Shown: positions 3,222 to 12,576 of the stretch, piece after piece | Layout: each line of letters starts with the position of its first letter | Position numbering within the stretch: the first letter of the stretch is position 1 | Virus record (IMG/VR): IMGVR_UViG_3300024339_000085 | Location: 1-23,503 of that record | Origin: a virus | Reading direction: 5' to 3' (one strand) | Length of the DNA: 23,503 bases | Translations under genes and position numbers: made by a program | The notes under the pieces: model-generated | The model's input: only the letters and a program-made list of their open reading frames with translations | Told to the model about the DNA's origin: nothing | Databases searched by the model: none

Positions 3222-4412
3222 ATGAATTGTGAAAAATGCGGAAGTTCAAAGGTTATTAAAAAAGGAAGGCGGGGCGGTAAGCATAGAATTAAATGCAAAG
3301 AGTGTAAAAGCTGGTCCACATTATTAATTAATGATTCTGAAACATGCCAAAATGATACTGGTTATTCAGATTATTTAAATAATGATTCATTTAAAAATTA
3401 TTGTACAGAAAATGGGATTGATATGAAGCTGGTGAAATCGGCAAAATATGTCAATCACCAGGGGCAGCAAGCATTTAACATTGTTTTGGACTATGAAAAA
3501 AAAGATGATCTAAAAATTACAGAAAAATTAATTAGTAAAATTATAAATGATTCAGCTAAAAAGGTCAAGCGCAATGTAACATCCAAAAATAAGGCGGGAA
3601 AAAAGTTATTGCGATTAATAATAACAGATGTTCATATTGGAATGACAACCAACAAAGCTGGAAATTCTTTATATGGTGGAAAATGGGATCGTGATGAATT
3701 ATTTTTGCGATTAGATAAAATTATTTCTGTTTTAAAAGATTTGGCAAGTGATTTTGATGAATTACATATAATTGATTTGGGTGATTATGTTGATGGGTGG
3801 AATGGAAAAACAGTAAGAAAACAGCATGATTTGCACCAAAACATGACCAATGAACAAATGTTTGAAAATGCTGTTGTTTTTAAAGATCAGTTATTGAATA
3901 ACTGTTATCCATTATTTAATCATGTTGAAATGTTTAATATTTGCAATGATAATCATGCGGGGAGTTTTGGATATATTGTAAATTATGCCGTTAAGGAGTT
4001 AGCGAAAATTAAATATAATATAACTGTTACAAATTATCAAAAATTCATTAACCATTATACTTGGGGAAACCATGTTTTTGTTTTATCGCATGGCAAAGAC
4101 AGGGAAAATTTAAGATTTGGTTTTAAACCACATATTGATCCAGGCGGCATTTCCAAAATTGAAGAGTATTTAAAAGCAAATGATTTAATGAACCGGGATT
4201 TTAATGTAACTTTTGAAAAAGGTGATTCCCATCAATTATTATTGGATTATTCAGCATCAGATGATTTTGATTATTTTAATTACCTGGCATTATCTCCCAG
4301 CAGCGATTGGGTGCAAACTAATTTTAAAAAAGGATCATCCGGGTTTGTAATTATGGAAATATCCGGTAAAAACAAAAGAATTACCCCATATTTTTTTGAT
4401 TGGAAAGTATAA
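3222..4412 (+). CDS. Zinc-ribbon metallophosphoesterase (calcineurin-like)
   Basis: The 396-residue product has two parts. Residues 1-30 form a zinc ribbon (C3-x2-C6, C25-x2-C28) with a basic patch between. Residues about 128-390 carry the metallophosphoesterase motif set: D136-V-H138, G-D188-Y-V-D191, N242-D-N-H245 in the usual GNHD place, and S-H290-G later. These ligands bind two metal ions and hydrolyse phosphodiesters or monoesters. The ribbon suggests a nucleic-acid substrate, so a nuclease of the Mre11/SbcD type or a DNA 3'-end processing role is likely but unproven. It is the last gene before the attachment region and is followed by a terminator-like hairpin. An early DNA-metabolism enzyme in this place is unusual. 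Confidence 0.8.
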   Translation: MNCEKCGSSKVIKKGRRGGKHRIKCKECKSWSTLLINDSETCQNDTGYSDYLNNDSFKNYCTENGIDMKLVKSAKYVNHQGQQAFNIVLDYEKKDDLKITEKLISKIINDSAKKVKRNVTSKNKAGKKLLRLIITDVHIGMTTNKAGNSLYGGKWDRDELFLRLDKIISVLKDLASDFDELHIIDLGDYVDGWNGKTVRKQHDLHQNMTNEQMFENAVVFKDQLLNNCYPLFNHVEMFNICNDNHAGSFGYIVNYAVKELAKIKYNITVTNYQKFINHYTWGNHVFVLSHGKDRENLRFGFKPHIDPGGISKIEEYLKANDLMNRDFNVTFEKGDSHQLLLDYSASDDFDYFNYLALSPSSDWVQTNFKKGSSGFVIMEISGKNKRITPYFFDWKV

Positions 4413-7351: not shown

Positions 7352-7690
7352 ATGCCAGGAATAGTTTACTTAAATACATTTATGAATGTATTAGAATCCG
7401 CGCCAAAACTGCAAAAAACTTTTAATGTTAGCCGGGATAATATACTGTCAAAAAAACGAACCAGGAAAATTGTAATGATCAGACATATTTTAATGTATTT
7501 GGAGCACAAAGAACATTATAGAGAATGGGAGCAGCCCGGTTGGTCCATTATTGGGAAATATTATAACCGCCATCATTGCTCAATTATGCATGCGACAAAG
7601 GTTGTTGAAAATGAAATCAAACATTACCCGGATTTTAAATTGCTAGTTGATGAAATCCAGCAAATAATTTGGGGTGAAATAAGATATTAA
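7352..7690 (+). CDS. Stand-alone DnaA domain IV-like DNA-binding protein
   Basis: The 112-residue product matches the C-terminal DNA-binding domain of DnaA and little else. Residues about 34-55 (KKRTRKIVMIRHILMYLEHK) correspond to its first long helix (usually RQxAMYL). Residues 67-84 (IIGKYYNRHHCSIMHATK) correspond to the signature IGxxFgxRDHSTVxHA that reads the DnaA box. There is no AAA+ ATPase domain or Walker motif, so it cannot form the usual ATP-dependent oligomer. It lies directly before the O-like initiator, so it may bind origin or host DnaA boxes and help or redirect initiation; a transcription factor is the alternative. Confidence 0.8.
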   Translation: MPGIVYLNTFMNVLESAPKLQKTFNVSRDNILSKKRTRKIVMIRHILMYLEHKEHYREWEQPGWSIIGKYYNRHHCSIMHATKVVENEIKHYPDFKLLVDEIQQIIWGEIRY

Positions 7691-7711: not shown

Positions 7712-8494
7712 ATGGGAAAAAGATTTATTGATACCGAAATGTTTAAAGATACATTTATTAGGGGCTTGGAAGCCCCTTTAAAGCCCCTTTGGGTGTACCT
7801 TTTTTGTGATTGTAATGCCGCGGGAATTTGGAATGTTGAAATGGATGTTGCCAAATTGCGCTGCGGGATCAATATTGATTATCCGGATGATAAAATTTTA
7901 GCTGCATTTGAAAGTAAAATTATGTTAATTGCGGATGGTGAAAAATGGTTTATCCCCAGCTTTGTTAAAATCCAATATAACAATGAATTAAGGACCAATA
8001 ACCCAGCATTAAAAAAGGTAATAAAAGAGTTGGATTTTTATGGTTTATTAACTGAAATTGATGATGAAACTTTTACTTTAAAACAAAGCCCCTTTGAAGC
8101 CCCTTTAAAGCCCCTTTTGTATTTAAAAAAAGGTAGTAAGGAAGAAGAAAAAGAAAAGGAAAAGGAAGAAGAAAAGGAAAAAGAAAAAGAAAATAAAAAA
8201 GAAAAAGAAAAAGTTTTAATAATGCCATTTACATCTGATAATTTTATTCACCATTGGCAGCTTTGGAAAAATTACCGGAAAGAAATGGGAAAGAAAAAAT
8301 ATCAAATAATTGGTGAACAATCAGCATTATCATCATTATCAAAAAAGAGTGATGGTAATGAAAACACAGCGGTTAATATAATCAACCAATCAATGGCAAA
8401 TGGTTGGCTGGGGTTTTTTGAACTTAAACAAAAAAATGATCATGGAACAACAACTGATTTACTTAAAAGAACATTACAAAGAATTAACAGTTAA
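7712..8494 (+). CDS. Replication initiator, lambda O-like, with internal iterons
   Basis: Three parts are visible in 260 residues. About 1-125 (RFIDTEMFKDTFIRGL, LWVYLFCDCNAAGIWNV) match the winged-helix N-domain of Bacteroidetes phage replication proteins. About 142-167 is a Lys/Glu-only linker from a purine-only DNA tract. About 172-240 (WQLWKNYRKEMGKKKYQI, NIINQSMANGWLGFFEL) resemble the C-terminal domain of DnaT/O-type proteins that recruit the helicase or loader. The peptide EAPLKPL occurs twice (20-26 and 129-135), encoded by identical GC-rich iterons. Initiator plus internal repeats mirrors lambda gene O with its origin. The 3' end overlaps the next gene by 53 bases. Confidence 0.75.
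   Translation: MGKRFIDTEMFKDTFIRGLEAPLKPLWVYLFCDCNAAGIWNVEMDVAKLRCGINIDYPDDKILAAFESKIMLIADGEKWFIPSFVKIQYNNELRTNNPALKKVIKELDFYGLLTEIDDETFTLKQSPFEAPLKPLLYLKKGSKEEEKEKEKEEEKEKEKENKKEKEKVLIMPFTSDNFIHHWQLWKNYRKEMGKKKYQIIGEQSALSSLSKKSDGNENTAVNIINQSMANGWLGFFELKQKNDHGTTTDLLKRTLQRINS
7760..8213. other. Candidate replication origin inside the initiator gene
   Basis: Five direct copies of the 11-bp iteron RAAGCCCCTTT lie in the gene: 7769-7779, 7780-7790, 8085-8095, 8096-8106 and 8107-8117. One inverted copy at 7760-7767 makes a palindrome (AGGGGCTT-GG-AAGCCCCT). The iterons stand out as GC-rich in AT-rich DNA. The second cluster is followed 20 bp on by a purine-only tract (8138-8213, one T at 8194) that should melt or bend easily. 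Iterons next to an easily melted tract inside the initiator gene is the lambda ori arrangement. No experimental support is visible from sequence. Confidence 0.55.
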
Positions 8495-9035
8495 AAATGC
8501 CGGCAAATTAAGTAAGCGGGCAACTAGCTTGATGGAAGTTTGGGAATCTAATGAACTATCATTTGCTCAAATAAAATTATTACGCGGTGAAAAAGAAGTA
8601 AAATCAATTTTAGCGGTTGAAATTGCAATTATGGTTGATCTGTTAAAGGCTGATGTCCAGGATCGGCAAATGATTTACATGGTTGAAATCATTTTAAAAG
8701 ATTTTTATCATTACACAATCAGCGATTTAACGGCATTAACATCCAGGTTGGCAAAAAATAATCCATACGGCAAACCGGTGCTGCAAAATATTTTGCATGA
8801 ATTAAATCAATATTCTGTTGAAAAAGATGAATTTGCTGTTACCCAAAGAATAAAAGAGTGCAGCAAACATAAAATTGAACATCCAAATGAAGATAAATTT
8901 TTTAAGATGTACCAAAGATTAAAAAATAAAACTAAAAAACCCGAAATGGACCAAAAACAAAAAGACCAAATTGCGATAAAAGAAAACCAGGTTAAAATTG
9001 AAGAAATGAAAAAACTTTATGGAATCAATATTTGA
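8442..9035 (+). CDS. Putative replication accessory protein in the helicase-loader position
   Basis: The start taken is the ATG at 8442 (MEQQLIYLKEHYKELTV), so the first 53 bases are shared with the initiator gene in another frame. The 197-residue product is helical. A core at about 75-140 (QMIYMVEIILKDFYHYTISD, AKNNPYGKPVLQNILHELNQ) resembles a domain seen in Bacteroidetes mobile elements, possibly the DUF6633 type (from memory). A charged coiled-coil tail (about 165-195) follows. There is no Walker A motif, so it is not a DnaC-type AAA+ loader. Its place after the O-like gene is that of lambda P, which also lacks ATPase activity; a loader role is inference. Confidence 0.55.
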   Translation: MEQQLIYLKEHYKELTVKNAGKLSKRATSLMEVWESNELSFAQIKLLRGEKEVKSILAVEIAIMVDLLKADVQDRQMIYMVEIILKDFYHYTISDLTALTSRLAKNNPYGKPVLQNILHELNQYSVEKDEFAVTQRIKECSKHKIEHPNEDKFFKMYQRLKNKTKKPEMDQKQKDQIAIKENQVKIEEMKKLYGINI

Positions 9036-9813: not shown

Positions 9814-10083
9814 ATGAGTAAATTATTAAAAGGATCAATTGATCTAAATAAAATTAATGAATCAGTAGTTTTTAAAGGTGCTAAAGGTGCTAAATATATT
9901 AATGTTGATATATGGATAAATGAAGATGCTGATAATTATGGGAATCATGCCGGTATAAAACAATCAACAAATGATGGTGAAAGTTTTAAAAGCCATTATA
10001 TTGGAAATGCAAAAAAAAGTTTTGGATGGGCTGATGTTGTTGAAAATGAAAAACCAAGTGATTCAAAACCATTGCCATTTTAA
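9814..10083 (+). CDS. Putative single-stranded DNA-binding-like protein
   Basis: An 89-residue protein with a small beta-rich body: SIDLNKINESVVFKGAKGAK, YINVDIWINEDADNYGNHAG, then SHYIGNAKKSF. A charged tail ends in SDSKPLPF. Many similar small proteins occur in Bacteroidetes phages beside replication nucleases. The body is compatible with an OB fold. The terminal PLPF after an acidic stretch (ENEKPSD) recalls the DDDIPF tip by which SSB recruits partners. I infer an SSB-like function; a direct family match could not be checked. It is followed one base later by the HNH gene. Confidence 0.5.
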   Translation: MSKLLKGSIDLNKINESVVFKGAKGAKYINVDIWINEDADNYGNHAGIKQSTNDGESFKSHYIGNAKKSFGWADVVENEKPSDSKPLPF

Positions 10084-10084
10084 T

Positions 10085-10417
10085 ATGCCAATATTTCCAA
10101 AATCAAAAAAAAGATCATGGGTTGCTGAAAACAAACCCCAGGTTGGGCGAAAGGTAACAAACCCATTTTATCACACAACACCCTGGCGCAAATTTAGAAA
10201 TGCATACATAAAAGAAAATCCCCTTTGTGTAGATTGTTATTTAAATGATAAAATTAAACCTGGGAAGGTGGTGGACCACATTAAACAGATCAACCGGGTT
10301 GATGCTTATAATACGGAATTTGGATATTATGGTGATCCATTAAGTGAATCAAATGTTCAAACATTATGTACCCATCACCATGCGATTAAAAGTGGAAAAG
10401 AAAGGTGGAATAAATGA
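10085..10417 (+). CDS. HNH endonuclease (phage packaging-associated type)
   Basis: The start taken is the ATG at 10085, one base after the preceding stop, giving 110 residues. Motifs are FYHTTPWRKFRNAYIKENP, a first Cys pair (LCVDC), the HNH core VVDHIKQI, an Asn (SESNVQ) and a second zinc pair LCTHHHAIKS. This is the small HNH type normally found just upstream of terminase genes in HK97-like phages, where it helps terminase cut cos DNA (HK97 gp74 family). Here a recombinase gene separates it from the terminases. Its stop overlaps the next start (ATGA). Confidence 0.85.
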   Translation: MPIFPKSKKRSWVAENKPQVGRKVTNPFYHTTPWRKFRNAYIKENPLCVDCYLNDKIKPGKVVDHIKQINRVDAYNTEFGYYGDPLSESNVQTLCTHHHAIKSGKERWNK

Positions 10418-11527: not shown

Positions 11528-11986
11528 ATGACCAAAGGAAGAAAACCGATACCAACAGCGATTAAAAAAATAAGGGGTACAAATCAACCATGCCGGACCA
11601 ATAAAAATGAAATAAATATTGATCCGGTTATAAAGTTGCCGCCAGCCCCAGGTTGGTTCAGTAAAACATCTAAAAAAATATATAAACAAAAGGGGCAACA
11701 GTTGCAATTACTGGGAGTATTAACACCATTGGATTTTGAACTGTTTATTTCATTTTGCCAAGAATATGGAAATTATATTGATACATCAATTGAACTTTCA
11801 AAAGTGCCGCACAATGCAGCATTATCTGATCAAAGTGAAATGGTATTTTTAAGAATAGCAAAAATAAATAAGATCTCATGGGAAAGAAGTAAATCAATTG
11901 CTGCTGAATTTGGGTTTACACCATCAGCCAGGGCAAAAATGATATTGCCGGAAAAAGAAAATAATAATGATAATGATTTTGATTAA
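11528..11986 (+). CDS. terS: Terminase small subunit (P27 family)
   Basis: The 152-residue product follows the P27-type small terminase pattern: N-terminal KGRKPIPTAIKKIRGTNQPC, a Pro-rich bridge LPPAPGWFSKTSKKIY, the central helices around LGVLTPLDFELFISFCQEYG, and the C-terminal AAEFGFTPSARAKM. The small subunit forms a ring that recognises the packaging site and positions the large subunit. The acidic, Asn-rich end (ENNNDNDFD) is ordinary. It overlaps the next gene by one base (TAATG); in most relatives the large subunit follows directly, whereas here an HNH gene intervenes. Confidence 0.88.
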   Translation: MTKGRKPIPTAIKKIRGTNQPCRTNKNEINIDPVIKLPPAPGWFSKTSKKIYKQKGQQLQLLGVLTPLDFELFISFCQEYGNYIDTSIELSKVPHNAALSDQSEMVFLRIAKINKISWERSKSIAAEFGFTPSARAKMILPEKENNNDNDFD

Positions 11987-12576
11987 TGGGAGCAAGAAAT
12001 TTAGTTGATTATAAAGCTGGCAAAACAATATTAGAATGTGGAATGAATGTAAACAAAAGAAAAAAGATGCTGAAAACTACTTTAAGTCAAATTGCTGATT
12101 ATTGGATTATCAACAATGAGATAGATGAAACACAATTGAATTTTGATTGGTCAGATGCCCATACTCATTGTTGGAATTGTGGCGATAATAAATACAGAAA
12201 ATCAAAAAAAAATTCATTGCAAAGGTGTCATATAATACCACACTCGCTAAATGGGAATGACATACCCAGCAATTATGTTTTATTATGTAAAGAATGCCAC
12301 GCAGAAGCACCCAATACATCTAATCCACATAATATGTGGGAATGGATAAAATCTAACTATATACCATTTTCTTTTAATGATACATATAAAATAAGAAAAG
12401 CACTTGTGATGTTTGAGCAAAAAGAAGGGTATAGCTTTTTTGATAAGGAGATAAATATAGAAGATTTAGACACGGCTATTAAGTCAGAAATGTGTAAAAT
12501 TAGTACACACGGAAATAAAATTAATGTAGTTACATATTATTATATGTTTAAAAATATTATTAGGAATTACACATAA
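11986..12576 (+). CDS. HNH endonuclease inserted between terminase genes
   Basis: A 196-residue protein. The HNH/zinc core is at about 60-115: HCWNCGDNKYRKS, LQRCHIIPHSLNGNDIPSNY, VLLCKECHAEAP, then NMWEWIKSNY, giving CxxC, C-H-I-I-P-H, N and CxxC-H. The flanks have no known domain. It separates terS from terL, which normally adjoin. By eye it contains no GATC or CCWGG sites although neighbouring phage genes have many, and it uses more TCT and GAG codons, so it looks like a later arrival. A stand-alone homing endonuclease is likely; a restriction-type or packaging nuclease is possible. Confidence 0.8.
   Translation: MGARNLVDYKAGKTILECGMNVNKRKKMLKTTLSQIADYWIINNEIDETQLNFDWSDAHTHCWNCGDNKYRKSKKNSLQRCHIIPHSLNGNDIPSNYVLLCKECHAEAPNTSNPHNMWEWIKSNYIPFSFNDTYKIRKALVMFEQKEGYSFFDKEINIEDLDTAIKSEMCKISTHGNKINVVTYYYMFKNIIRNYT

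Follow-up and report, generated by a model that had tools for sequence, protein, structure and literature searches.

The question raised by this locus is whether short repeats lying inside a phage replication initiator gene could be the very origin at which that initiator acts. The window analysed here (the whole stretch of viral DNA, 23,503 nt) carries on its plus strand a 260-aa replication initiator gene (7712..8494), recognized from a match to PHROG 678 and an AlphaFold2 model, which the original prediction had taken for an O-like gene with a lambda-like origin hidden within it. A search of the whole window for the 11-bp repeat RAAGCCCCTTT returned five exact copies (7769, 7780, 8085, 8096 and 8107), and the sole additional match with at most one mismatch was at 10216; shuffled sequences contained 1.07 matches on average and none out of 100 reached six. 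The 22 bp at 8096-8117 are an exact repeat of those at 7769-7790 (GAAGCCCCTTTAAAGCCCCTTT), so that the base-for-base duplication reported from first inspection is confirmed.

When the repeat is re-read as a 9-bp quasi-palindrome, AAG(CCC or GGG)CTT, the gene contains six such sites, organized in two clusters of three with an exact 11-bp pitch in both (starts at 7759/7770/7781 and 8086/8097/8108). The five direct copies and one inverted copy in two clusters noticed originally are thus all found, the actual layout being three plus three. In the cluster lying in the N-domain code, the first site (TAGGGGCTT, 7759..7767, minus strand) is the inverted one, with one mismatch to AAGGGGCTT and in the same 11-bp register as the other sites, and is followed by two plus-strand copies of AAGCCCCTT (7770..7778 and 7781..7789). 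The linker cluster includes three plus-strand copies of AAGCCCCTT (8086..8094, 8097..8105 and 8108..8116), and since a step of 11 shifts the reading frame, the same 11-mer is translated there in three frames, i.e., as SPF, EAPL and KPL, respectively.

Coding constraint alone had been suspected to be insufficient to account for these repeats, and the codon analyses agree. Reshuffling the gene's own synonymous codons left an average of 1.4 sites (six observed) and 0.24 pairs at 11 bp (four observed), and none of 5,000 such shuffles matched the observed numbers. Across relatives of the initiator, proline is encoded by CCC in 117 of 118 cases at the linker motif vs. 33 of 461 in the remainder of these genes; Ser, Gly and Lys show comparable preferences, for AGC, GGG and AAG, respectively. 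Homologues retaining the peptide with scrambled codons, which had been named beforehand as a pattern that would refute the idea, were looked for in this comparison, and the codons at the motif are strongly biased rather than scrambled. Overall, every frame and either orientation is used where the sites are translated, the peptides derived from the same DNA differ (SPF, EAPL, KPL, EGASKGL), and the N-domain peptide varies among relatives while the DNA sites hold their register. Oddly conserved low-complexity peptides of these initiators, such as SPLQG, EGASKGL and EAPSKPL, are then explained as by-products of DNA sites.

The protein itself is predicted to consist of a winged-helix N-domain (about aa 1-123), a charged linker and a helical C-domain (about aa 171-246). 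Only the C-domain is matched by the PHROG 678 "replication initiation O-like" profile (residues 143-245, E 1.3e-5), which leaves residues 1-142 uncovered. In the AlphaFold2 model, the N-domain has a pLDDT of about 90-95, and linker residues 128-165 fall below 50. Searched against the PDB for similar folds, the N-domain model gave only weak matches (top Z 5.7, with an ORC subunit), most of them to winged helices of a generic kind, and no Rep structure was among those listed; no sequence relative was found in the PDB either. Membership in the lambda O family (Phage_rep_O) was considered and rejected: at an E threshold of 0.1, no PF04492 was detected in the window protein, whereas lambda O matches this domain with an E of 5.7e-36, and profile comparison with lambda O returned a probability of 0.2%.

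Downstream of the linker cluster, the predicted 76-nt purine tract with a single T was found at 8138..8213 (plus strand), where it encodes the K/E-rich linker. The description of this tract as easily melted is not specifically supported: by direct count it is 24% G+C vs. about 29-31% around it, i.e., it is more purine-skewed than unusually A+T-rich. Among relatives, counterpart tracts (AAGGAT, CAGGAA and similar) also come after the linker cluster, and in GC-richer relatives the tract encodes QEQEQE; given this and the only mildly higher A+T content, easy melting does not appear to be a conserved property. The purine skew could also originate from the protein, K, E and Q being encoded by purine-rich codons in any case. 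In several proteobacterial relatives (L056, L328, L074 and others), the linker sites are followed by a tract that repeats with hexamer periodicity; the residues it encodes differ by family (KEKE, DKDM, QEQE), and its coding strand stays purine-rich. The GC-skew turn anticipated at about 8.1 kb did not materialize, the skew being positive throughout. DnaA boxes (TTWTNCACA) were also considered as an explanation and rejected, as they are not enriched and none occurs near the initiator gene.

The gene directly upstream of the initiator, on the plus strand (7352..7690), encodes 112 aa that include a C-terminal DNA-binding domain of DnaA (domain IV-like; PF08299, E 1.6e-11), and the same run of genes continues downstream with a plus-strand gene lacking any family match (8442..9035), so that no helicase or loader can be named next door. 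Elsewhere in the window, Pfam identifies two different tyrosine integrases in this one phage record (4723-5904 and 10414-11331), one with the arm-binding domain Arm-DNA-bind_5 and the other without. A 396-aa protein (3222-4412) without Pfam match includes an N-terminal CxxC zinc-ribbon-like stretch and, read by eye, phosphoesterase-like motifs (DVHIG, GDYVDG, NDNH). Finally, two HNH-type frames occur near the small terminase gene (11986-12576 and 9971-10417), the latter overlapping the preceding gene.

Relatives of the window N-domain are numerous: 569 were detected in the scanned part of the viral collection, of which 80 were kept, and 18 further loci were added from bacterial MAG records. 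The 87 distinct relatives contain 272 sites, vs. about 60 expected from shuffles, and 141 pairs at 11 bp, vs. 3 expected. Spacings between sites are 11, 22 or 33 bp, other values being represented by single counts, and almost all sites are positioned at nt 30-90 and 300-390 of the gene. The arrays are confined to the gene, with 160 pairs at 11-bp pitch within it and none outside in the loci searched, flanking DNA included. The commonest distances between the two clusters, 276 and 287, are one site step apart, which reflects variable detection of the outermost sites (first or last). The MAG sources of relatives with the same site span several bacterial phyla.

The statement in the original prediction that relatives have a different peptide in the N-domain is correct (SAPYKLL, KAPYKLL, QGAYKLL and also EAPYKAL), but most of them retain DNA sites there in the same register, so that the N-domain copy is not peculiar to the window phage: a second cluster is common to many relatives. 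The sites of this N-cluster frequently point the other way (AAGGGGCTT nn AAGGGGCTT nn AAGCTCCTT). One branch (CCGCAACCT CAGCACCTT AAACTTCTA) has no recognisable cluster in its N-domain code, the N-domain motif used to set the register is absent from 9 of the 87 relatives, and some relatives lack recognisable sites. Divergent relatives carry other site sequences, some at 12-bp pitch. Examples include alternating AAGGGTA/TACCCTT at about 11 bp (L325:4001-4828) and GACTATA at 11 bp (L321:4001-4846), both at the same place as the sites; L319:4001-4804 and L322:4001-4453 are likewise divergent, with other sequences at that place.

A natural exchange links the sites to the N-domain. Relatives of a third type have an N-domain of Lin1244 type (PF14297) and C-domains 72-88% identical to that of a window-type relative. 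These genes have no AAGSSSCTT site; they carry instead CGCAATGC-type sites at nt 140/151/162 and 356/367/378, again at 11-bp pitch (187 sites vs. 47 expected, 72 pairs vs. 6, and 36 triples vs. 1.6), with the three frames used about equally. Two phages, L030 and L269, share about 91% nucleotide identity in both flanks (1.9 kb on the upstream side, 2.7 kb on the downstream side), and a single block of ~580 bp sets them apart. The upstream edge of this block is about 160 bp ahead of the start codon (at the start codon itself when L030 is compared to L252), its downstream edge is the end of the charged linker, and it contains the N-domain, the sites and the tract. The sites thus go with the N-domain rather than with the host, the C-domain or the remaining phage genome.

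The same architecture is found in a second family of initiators. When the viral collection was scanned for pairs of AGCCCCTT separated by 1-5 bases, 162 of the 195 pairs among the matches listed were at 11-bp pitch, and a control 8-mer showed no preferred spacing (19/11/19/18/8 over the five spacings, again among the matches listed). Many of the AGCCCCTT matches belong to proteobacterial initiators affiliated to PHROGs 1701, 12196 and 25210, some members of which independently carry the annotation "DNA replication protein O", in one phage of Acinetobacter and one of E. coli; in the E. coli phage, the gene is part of a cI-cro-cII-O-DnaC block. The 35 distinct members contain 171 sites (39 expected) and 83 pairs at 11 bp (2.9 expected), in two clusters; as these members were collected via the site, its presence is partly selected, a bias that affects neither the pitch nor the frames nor the second cluster. 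Their early cluster lies at the code for EGASKGL, near residues 59-72, in the helix-turn-helix region. AGCCCCTT also forms arrays at 12-bp pitch in other repetitive open frames (L092:130-185 and L093:2827-2918), which look like ordinary in-frame tandem repeats.

No similarity between the window-type and proteobacterial-type N-domains was detected by profile comparison. The AlphaFold2 models of both N-domains have the same order of elements, however (helices, strand, two helices, two strands, helices), which in these models is as in a winged helix. The second-family model matches the plasmid Rep initiators 5kbj, 4pt7 and 4pql with Z of about 8 over 84-85 residues (2.6-2.7 A).

Taken together, these observations make it very likely, in our view, that the two clusters are the phage replication origin, with iterons placed inside the coding sequence of their own binding protein, the initiator, although both the binding and the origin activity are inferred, and no binding or replication experiment on this initiator family was found. 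The winged-helix N-domain would bind AAG(CCC/GGG)CTT sites one helical turn (11 bp) apart, a pitch that would align neighbouring initiator subunits along the same face of the double helix. The three sites in the N-domain code and the three in the linker code may then be bridged by one oligomer, with the DNA between them bent or looped. Binding of both clusters could lead to the adjacent purine-skewed tract (8138..8213), a candidate region for strand opening or helicase entry, being opened, exposed or used for entry of the helicase, which the C-domain would presumably recruit from the host, directly or via a loader.

The best-surviving alternative, though an unlikely one, is that the sites are operators controlling the initiator's own transcription or copy number and that the origin lies elsewhere. 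A repression loop could form between two clusters separated by about 300 bp, and a binding protein co-inherited with its sites as a cassette would give the same sequence picture; however, both clusters are part of the coding sequence (30-90 and 300-390 nt), any promoter of the gene being upstream of them, no 11-bp pair was seen in the flanking DNA of the loci examined, and the lambda and pSK41 precedents at such a position are origins (PMC5043065, PMC5703833). It is more doubtful still that the sites are bound by another protein, either a host factor or the product of the neighbouring DnaA-domain-IV gene. The latter is immediately upstream in the window, yet a homologue is found in only 2 of the 98 relative loci that carry the initiator, those of the two closest relatives, and it was rejected as a general binder on this count. 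Same-site relatives also come from MAGs of several bacterial phyla, and a host factor does not predict that the site changes with the N-domain in otherwise near-identical phages. A very improbable third reading sees in the sites recombination junctions retained because they help phages to swap domains: the N-domain and sites are indeed exchanged as one block ending near the linker, but the swapped versions have different sites, which therefore provide no shared homology, and recombination has no need for a strict 11-bp pitch. Finally, selection on the peptide EAPLKPL or simple sequence duplication is barely tenable, for although this peptide does recur in the window protein, one DNA sequence is read in three frames and both orientations into different peptides, its register stays constant while peptides change, and synonymous shuffles do not reproduce the sites, so that peptide-level constraint is ruled out.

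If the clusters are indeed origins, sites at 11-bp pitch within an initiator gene and unexplained by codons would provide a sequence rule for candidate origins in uncultured phages, one that predicts which initiator reads which site, and the natural N-domain/site swaps make initiator-origin specificity directly testable. It is tempting to go further and propose that the three N-domain types (window, proteobacterial "O" and Lin1244) obey one rule, general to a large class of phage initiators, with two intragenic clusters, each of two or three sites exactly one turn apart, the first within the code for the DNA-binding domain and the second within that for the linker, and that the N-domain, the clusters and the linker tract form an exchangeable cassette of replicon specificity; in the proteobacterial type, the early cluster would even specify some residues of the predicted helix-turn-helix by which it is recognized. 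We consider the chances of this generalization to be about even. As far as our searches reach, the one-turn pitch, the second cluster in the DNA-binding-domain code and the breadth across N-domains without detectable similarity are new, but priority is uncertain: the site arrays queried were absent from the open-access papers searched, and the subscription literature was outside this search.

Among known systems, lambda has the layout named in the original prediction, with four 18-bp iterons in gene O followed by an A+T-rich region that is opened on O binding (PMC5043065). The likeness holds for the layout (sites in the linker code of the initiator gene, then a tract; a purine-rich stretch also follows the annotated lambda iterons in the sequence we inspected) and probably for the mechanism, but not for the family, as PF04492 is missing and the window initiator has no sequence similarity to lambda O. 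The lambda iterons are also 18-bp palindromes, 20-24 bp apart, in one cluster bound by O dimers, whereas the window sites are 9-bp quasi-palindromes at 11-bp pitch, and no cluster comparable to that in the N-domain code exists among the annotated lambda iterons. The PHROG 1701/12196/25210 initiators resemble the window in site, 11-bp pitch, two intragenic clusters and predicted order of N-domain elements, but their early cluster lies at the helix-turn-helix region and not between the first two helices. Further afield, the rep boxes of pSK41 are central in rep and bound by the N-domain, the linker encoded there being dispensable, and in pPR9 the N-domain is swapped and the C-domain kept (PMC5703833). 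As proposed for the window, Rep of pSK41 (RepA_N) thus combines a winged-helix N-domain with boxes in its own gene, but these systems are staphylococcal plasmids, and the window N-domain model has only weak structural matches (Z under 6). In the PLE satellites of Vibrio, the RepA_N DNA-binding domain of RepA changes together with the iteron origin, the C-domain being conserved (PMC8263062); that origin is intergenic, with semi-palindromic iterons of about 30 bp, whereas the window sites are intragenic.
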